This document shows, piece by piece, positions 9,726-10,909 of a stretch of 37,382 nucleotides of DNA. The stretch spans positions 1-37,382 of the forward strand of contig QHVC01000108.1 of assembly GCA_003222205.1 (NCBI GenBank). Reading direction: 5' to 3'. The stretch comes from Gemmatimonadota bacterium. Its GTDB lineage: Bacteria > Gemmatimonadota > Gemmatimonadetes > Gemmatimonadales > GWC2-71-9. Position numbers and translations under genes: made by a program. The notes beneath the pieces are model-generated. The model was not told where the DNA came from. It saw only the letters and a program-made list of their open reading frames with translations, and did no database searches. Within the stretch, counting starts at the first letter, position 1, and every line of letters starts with the position of its first letter.

Positions 9726-10909
9726 GGCGTTTCCCCTTGAGTGTAGCGGCGCCGCCAGTCGGCGGCCCACCGCTCGTAGTCCCCCGCCCGGATCGCCGCG
9801 CGCATCGCCGCGGTCAGCCGGATCAGGTAGCGCACATTATGGAGCGAGAGGAGCCGGAGCCCGAGCAGCTCCTCCGCCAGGAACAGGTGTCGCAGGTAGC
9901 CCCGCGAGAACGTGGTGCACGTCTCGCAGTCGCACGTCGGGTCGAGCGGGCGCGCATCGTCGCGGTGCGCCGCGTTGCGGATGTTGAGCGGGCCGTCGGC
10001 CGTGTACGCCGTGCCGTTCCGCCCGTTGCGGGTCGGCGCGACGCAATCGAACAGGTCCACGCCGCGCGCCACCGCCGCCACCAGATCCTCGGGAAACCCG
10101 ACGCCCATAAGATAACGGGGCACGGCCGGCGGCAGCCGGGGCGCGAGCAGCTCCAGCGTTTCGTAGGTGCGGGCCTTGGGCTCGCCGACCGACAGCCCGC
10201 CGATCGCCAAGCCTGTCCATTCGGCCTGGTTCAGGATCTGCTGCAGGCCTTCGATTCGCAGCTGTCTATGCGCACCGCCCTGCAAGATCGGCCATAGTGT
10301 TTGTCGGACGGTCGGACCGTCGGACGGTCTGACTGTTAGGCGCTTTCCGTCCGACAGTCCGACCGTCCGACTGTCCGACAATTCCGCATGCCGCTTGGCG
10401 CACCGCTCCAGCCACTTCACCGTTCGATCCAAGGCATCCCGTGCCGTGGGGAGATCCGCCCCCCCCGGCACCACATGGTCGAACGCCATCGCGACGTCGG
10501 CACCGAGGGTCCACTGGATCTCCACCGCGCGCTCCGGCGTCAGGAAGCGGCGCGACCCGTCCACGTGGCTCTGAAACTCGACGCCGTCGTCGCTGACCGT
10601 CCGCGACCCCTCGAGCGAGAACACCTGGAATCCGCCCGAGTCGGTGAGTAGCGGCCGGTCCCAGCCCATGAAGCGGTGCAGGCCGCCGAGCCGGCCCACC
10701 ACGTCCTCGCCCGGCCGCACGTGCAGGTGGTAGGTGTTGGCGAGCACCAGCGATGCGCCGGCGGCGCGCAGGTCGTTGGGGGAGAGCGTTCGCACCGTGC
10801 CCTGCGTGCCGACGGGCATGAAGCAGGGGGTCTGCACCTCCCCGTGGGGGAGGGTCAGCGTGCCAGCTCGCGCCGCCCCCGACACGGCATCGACGTGGAA
10901 CTCGAACAT
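9722..10909 (-). CDS. tgt: tRNA-guanine transglycosylase with a repeat-encoded insertion
   Basis: Tgt swaps the wobble guanine of GUN tRNAs for preQ1. The 395-residue TIM barrel has the catalytic aspartates in [11 protein letters not shown] (residue 90) and [15 protein letters not shown] (residue 288) and a zinc site of Cys 326, 328, 331 with His 357. Residues about 177-203 do not align with the family: they are encoded by an octamer array (10303-10380) placed just before the LWPILQGG strand, in the loop that reads GNKNA in E. coli Tgt. The insertion is exactly 26 codons, so the frame is kept. The ATG at 10909 has an AGGGG-type ribosome site upstream. Confidence 0.97.
10303..10380. repeat. 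Octamer array as inverted repeat inside tgt
   Basis: Four 8-bp units of GTCGGACN (the fourth degenerate, GTCTGACT), a 14-base spacer, then four units of GTCCGACN, which is the reverse complement. The eighth base varies from unit to unit while seven stay fixed. The total of 78 bases is a multiple of three. The two halves could pair into a long hairpin in mRNA or single-stranded DNA. Confidence 0.93.

Follow-up and report, generated by a model that had tools for sequence, protein, structure and literature searches.

The tRNA-guanine transglycosylase gene (tgt) of a Gemmatimonadota metagenome-assembled genome (MAG) carries an in-frame array which is probably one copy of a dispersed, non-autonomous palindromic element of ~77 nt, spreading in trans and being refreshed at fixed addresses. 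The dispersal of the element, its in-frame insertion into surface loops of conserved enzymes, the recurrence of its addresses, the turnover of its units and the empty sites in relatives are all directly observed. The window, by which we mean the whole stretch of DNA analysed, comprises 37,382 nt of one contig of this genome.

The palindrome in tgt and the protein around it

The tgt gene is located on the minus strand at 9722-10909, counted from its ATG (Pfam TGT, E = 8e-141; TGT fold in the AlphaFold model), and a longer ORF, from a GTG at 10990, is possible. Inside the gene two inverted repeat arms, 10301-10333 and 10349-10381, are 88% complementary and made of 8-nt units. A preliminary description of this DNA had given the array as an octamer inverted repeat of 78 bases or 26 codons; the inverted 8-nt units and the reading frame stand, but the palindrome proper covers only 77 nt (10303-10379), and one further base is required to complete the 26 codons with which the tgt frame stays open. 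Each arm of the element has four units, of GTCGGACN type on one side and of GTCCGACN type on the other, with a centre of 15 nt between them. The folding energy of its RNA is -57 kcal/mol vs -28.3 ± 3.2 kcal/mol in shuffles (z = -9.0).

In the alignment with relatives the insert sits between the near-invariant Leu177 and the invariant Gln203, where sequences without it have ~2-7 residues, in agreement with the earlier proposal that a short loop had been replaced. Non-repetitive loops of the same length, which that proposal had named as the observation that would speak against it, are absent from the relatives: a long loop is either a hairpin of other units or the remnant of one, and the rest are short. 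Asp90 and Asp288, which we take to be the catalytic residues after Zymomonas TGT, and Cys326, Cys328, Cys331 and His357, presumably the zinc ligands, are invariant across an alignment of 59 Tgt sequences, and the suggestion of an intact active site and zinc site is thus borne out. The AlphaFold model has a mean pLDDT of 89 and a TM score of 0.90-0.96 to Zymomonas TGT, with low values in the insert (block means of 49-51 for residues 181-200). In this model the residues of the element form a disordered loop, with helix 153-179 before it and strand 204-206 after it, in an otherwise confident TGT fold, matching the repeat-made surface loop predicted earlier. Judged from its sequence, the Tgt that carries this loop is probably active.

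A dispersed family and its copies in other genes

An 89-nt stretch representing the tgt array matches at least 40 other places in the 2.97 Mb MAG. Within 320 kb of the same genome, made of contigs picked for holding copies and hence biased to them and unusable for density, 31 hairpins with arms of at least 18 were found, whereas a third-order Markov control gave 0. Almost all of the 31 are tandem arrays with a period of 7 or 8. The octamer copies belong to a length class of 76-78 nt and have in common a central palindrome near TGTTAGGCGCCTAACA. Their polarity is invariant, the G-rich arm being 5' in every octamer hairpin of the family. Orientation relative to transcription was considered as a signal and set aside as uninformative, the palindrome being the same on both strands, so that only the internal polarity counts.

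In the arms the units run head-to-tail, each with a core of 7 nt and a single free base. Between copies the cores have an identity of 0.90 and the free eighth base one of 0.30, for which 0.31 is expected by chance; this base is random in composition and not complementary across the arms (6 of 27 pairs vs 7.6 expected). Chance-level eighth bases together with 90% identical cores are not explained by plain copying followed by neutral decay. Identical free-base triplets are in small excess among copies, some of which share patterns above chance, and this suggests some recent copying. Compensatory core changes are few (3 vs ~0.4 expected, one of them probably a parsing error). Selection for base-pairing was rejected as the sole constraint because the free bases are unpaired and the compensatory changes so few. 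The search for a known RNA family gave no Rfam match above the gathering score, only sub-threshold hairpin matches, and the double-arm pattern has no exact match in 2.9 million viral contigs.

Thirty-six octamer elements or arms were placed relative to genes in the sample of the window's genome, using crude gene calls from a simple codon-usage gene caller (~95% coding): 10 are inside genes, 9 N-terminal, 2 C-terminal and 15 intergenic. In-gene copies use all three codon phases. Pfam domain matches run across the insert in ATP synthase gamma (AtpG), MeaB, a FAD_binding_5 dehydrogenase subunit, a penicillin-binding transpeptidase and valyl-tRNA synthetase (ValRS), and in a PMM/PGM-type mutase (PMM) the insert lies at a domain edge, between domains II and III. 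A hydrophobic core (Kyte-Doolittle maximum >2.1) is placed between or just after the arms in six of the nine N-terminal copies, and several N-terminal copies belong to exported families (LolA, PBP_like_2); these two features suggest that some of them were co-opted into signal peptides. N-terminal arms flanking or preceding hydrophobic cores were recorded at L081:9814-10671, L083:9977-10381, L084:6807-7508, L086:14335-15249, L086:15246-16373 and L087:18356-19924.

The window itself holds three further tandem units of the octamer family (GTCCGACT x3) at 15615-15638, a single arm only, just past the stop of the ORF at 15212-15613. Heptamer hairpins occupy the tgt-queA spacer (10923-11000, 78 nt, units of AACGCGG type) and the queA-ruvB spacer (12046-12117); the former position is occupied in many relatives and the latter in relatives as well. 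Inverted heptamer arms of GCGGGAT / CATCCCC type are located at 5704-5732 and 5942-5968, ~210 nt apart in an RsmB-like gene (5058-6371), and in relatives these positions have other sequence. Heptamer arrays of the ATGCGGG/ATCCCGC family, which encode tails of HPASRIPHP type, lie at 1089-1121, the 3' end of a tsaD-like gene, and at 28515-28541, between two genes. A second hairpin family in the same genome, with imperfect units of GTCGGGC type, was seen at L325:3889-3979 and L327:10634-10707, on two of the three contigs with a Y1 transposase.

Recurrent addresses and changing units in relatives

The relatives are Gemmatimonadota MAGs, and the array pattern in tgt recurs in independent assemblies. 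Tgt was found in 89 of the 102 family genomes. According to a comparison that relies on a MAFFT alignment and on the choice of ORF, 20 of the 91 aligned Tgt sequences carry an array at the tgt site, most others having a short loop and a few a one-arm remnant. In ~90 genomes the arrays in the gene are confined to codons 176-183, with a period of 8 except for one of period 7 in an outgroup. The unit at this site is GTCGGACN in the window's genome (G000), G018 and G095; GGCGGTTA in G030; GGCGGACG in G039 and G100; CACGACGC in G024, G097, G102, G096 and G040; GATGGAAN in G093, G094 and G091; GTCGGCAC in G086; GTCGGTAN in G002; CGGGACAG in G060; GACGGAAA in G098; and the heptamer GGGGCCA in the outgroup MAG L105; the unit of the array in G099 is undefined. 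Wherever checked, the tgt unit of a relative is scattered over that relative's genome and missing from G000. Sister species on the Tgt tree differ in their unit, empty relatives lie between the main clade and the arrays of G002, G060 and L105, and G007 keeps a single arm, of yet another unit. Parsimony on this tree, which is of one gene and has weak nodes, takes 18 steps for 20 arrays. About five independent gains are counted at the tgt site.

The same behaviour was found in AtpG, PMM and MeaB orthologues of ~18 genomes, in which arrays are located at shared sites and the unit type follows the genome. All arrays are on site in PMM (6/6) and MeaB (8/8), and that of AtpG is at one common site in G000, G030 and G098; the L255 AtpG array, off-site in one count owing to a longer open frame, is on site by alignment. 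The AtpG address of G039 (L252) holds a different, nearly gap-free palindrome of CCCGGGCGCAAGCCCGGGG type, and CCCGGGCGCAAGCCCGGGG-like sequence is also present at L072:2836-2920 in the window's genome. At one and the same place in ValRS, G000 has a GTCGGACN arm array and G091 a GGAATGAT hairpin. Arrays are found at the LolA N-terminus of both G000 and G091, which is probably a further recurrent address.

Element cores in MeaB orthologues are 90-100% identical between genera vs 36-53% at four-fold sites, a comparison of cores from which the G018 tgt element was left out for its misparsed left edge. This conservation at the same site points to constraint, homogenisation or recent refilling of the occupied addresses. 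It is also the basis of a reading that we consider unlikely, namely that fixed loops of housekeeping proteins and fixed operon spacers form an addressed system holding, as inverted arrays, a lineage-specific 7-nt word, which a word-reading or word-rewriting factor would keep while leaving the eighth base free; with cores this similar and synonymous sites near saturation, the elements would, if that were true, be more than selfish inserts.

Origin of the element and its place among known repeats

In the mechanism we favour, a trans-acting activity would spread the element into exposed loops that tolerate ~20-26 extra residues. With a period of 8, coprime to 3, every frame would read out one stop-free hydrophilic repeat of 8 residues (VGxSDxRT), and the palindrome would give a similarly stop-free peptide from either strand; the tolerance of the element in proteins would thus follow from a repeat that is stop-free and hydrophilic in any frame and on either strand. 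Occupied addresses would then be refreshed or replaced by whichever family is active in the lineage, some copies shrinking to one-arm remnants or being lost, and most would probably be neutral for the host protein. MITEs have terminal inverted repeats, a target-site duplication and a related autonomous transposon; here the whole element is an inverted repeat, no autonomous partner or transposase tied to it was identified, and inspection of the element edges by eye gave neither a target-site duplication nor a target motif. These negative results, the chance-level eighth base and the conserved cores at shared sites speak against the favoured mechanism.

The most serious alternative, which we hold possible though not probable, is that old insertions were kept at fixed addresses while the unit drifted genome-wide in concert, by conversion or selection, so that re-insertion is dispensed with. 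Such drift would account for the presence of GTCGGACN at the MeaB address of four genera and for full or one-arm GTCGGACN copies at tgt in g1, g19, g15, g25 and g27, as well as for hybrid arms (a GGCGGACG arm with a GTCCGACN arm in G100 MeaB, mixed units in G039 tgt) and for neighbouring unit types only one or two bases apart. It is harder to reconcile with the many empty close relatives, with CACGACGC, which is no small step from GTCGGACN, and with the isolated tgt-site arrays of G002, G060 and the outgroup family, whose units are unrelated and which have empty relatives between them. The arrays could also have arisen site by site through local slippage and palindrome formation, with no dispersal at all. 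In favour of this are their tandem structure and the frequency of 7-8 nt repeat units in the clade; the recurrence of one unit and centre at tens of dispersed places, with a unit that is genome-specific, makes this origin hardly credible.

Two known enzymatic activities were considered as the source of the repeats. Movement as a REP/REPIN system by a RAYT-like Y1 transposase seems improbable to us: the window's genome has three Y1_Tnp genes, with matches in many relatives, and inverted arms with variable spacers look REPIN-like, yet the stretches read around the three Y1 genes hold no flanking octamer hairpins, on which ground RAYT linkage was rejected, the GTAG/CGTC tag was not seen, and G002 has octamer hairpins at tgt and PMM without a Y1 match. 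The random free bases, non-complementary across arms, and the G-rich arm always being 5' would fit a telomerase- or DRT10-like enzyme that writes repeats (7 templated bases plus 1 free) onto 3' ends at breaks, the ends being joined into a palindrome, and DRT10 is reported to produce tandem-repeat DNA (PMC12632851). We regard this as very unlikely, since RVT_1 reverse transcriptases are absent from the window's genome and from 21 of the 22 clade genomes, and since copies have a common central palindrome and some share free-base patterns above chance; the first of these results led us to discard such an origin. A dispersed element spreading in trans is the explanation that we retain as probable.

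So far coding palindromes have been regarded as peculiar to Rickettsia, Wolbachia and one archaeon. Here they occur in a free-living phylum, of soil and groundwater, within core enzymes that include Tgt, ATP synthase gamma and ValRS. Its many related genomes with different words at one address permit direct tests of how repeats enter proteins and are tolerated there, of whether they become useful, as in signal peptides, and of whether the family evolves in concert or by re-insertion. No description of Gemmatimonadota elements of the tgt type was found in the open-licence papers searched.

Several known repeats share some of these features. REP/REPIN elements are likewise inverted pairs of short palindromic arms, species-specific and in tens of copies, but REPs are extragenic and RAYT-linked, whereas the Gemmatimonadota element is often in frame in genes, has tandem octamer arms and was not found linked to a RAYT. 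The cyanobacterial heptamer repeats and the TAACTGA repeats of Beggiatoaceae (PMC4679880) resemble it in having 7-nt tandem units in many, mostly intergenic copies; they are direct repeats, in contrast to inverted hairpin arms with octamers in genes. PARCELs (palindromic amphipathic repeat coding elements, PMC2996958) are also palindromic DNA coding for protein repeats, and form tandem 25-residue domains of surface proteins rather than single inserts in housekeeping enzymes. The closest likeness is to the Rickettsia palindromic elements (RPEs), short dispersed palindromes present between genes and in frame in tolerant loops of conserved genes, of which R. conorii has ~44 (PMC10969869; PMC2229807; PMC2996958); coding palindromes are also reported in Wolbachia and Methanocaldococcus jannaschii (PMC2996958). 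The resemblance to RPEs noted in the preliminary description holds: the element is a long hairpin with many dispersed copies, genic and intergenic, inserted in frame in conserved genes whose orthologues elsewhere are empty. RPEs are 105-150 bp long with a conserved internal peptide, whereas the element described here has ~77 nt, tandem octamer arms and a random eighth base, comprises several species-specific unit families with a recurrent codon address, lives in free-living hosts and has N-terminal copies around hydrophobic cores. We have not filed it as an RPE because its length (77 nt), unit structure and host differ, a distinction made by description. On the present analysis the octamer elements are best read as a protein-coding palindromic family that would work like the RPEs of Rickettsia with another architecture.
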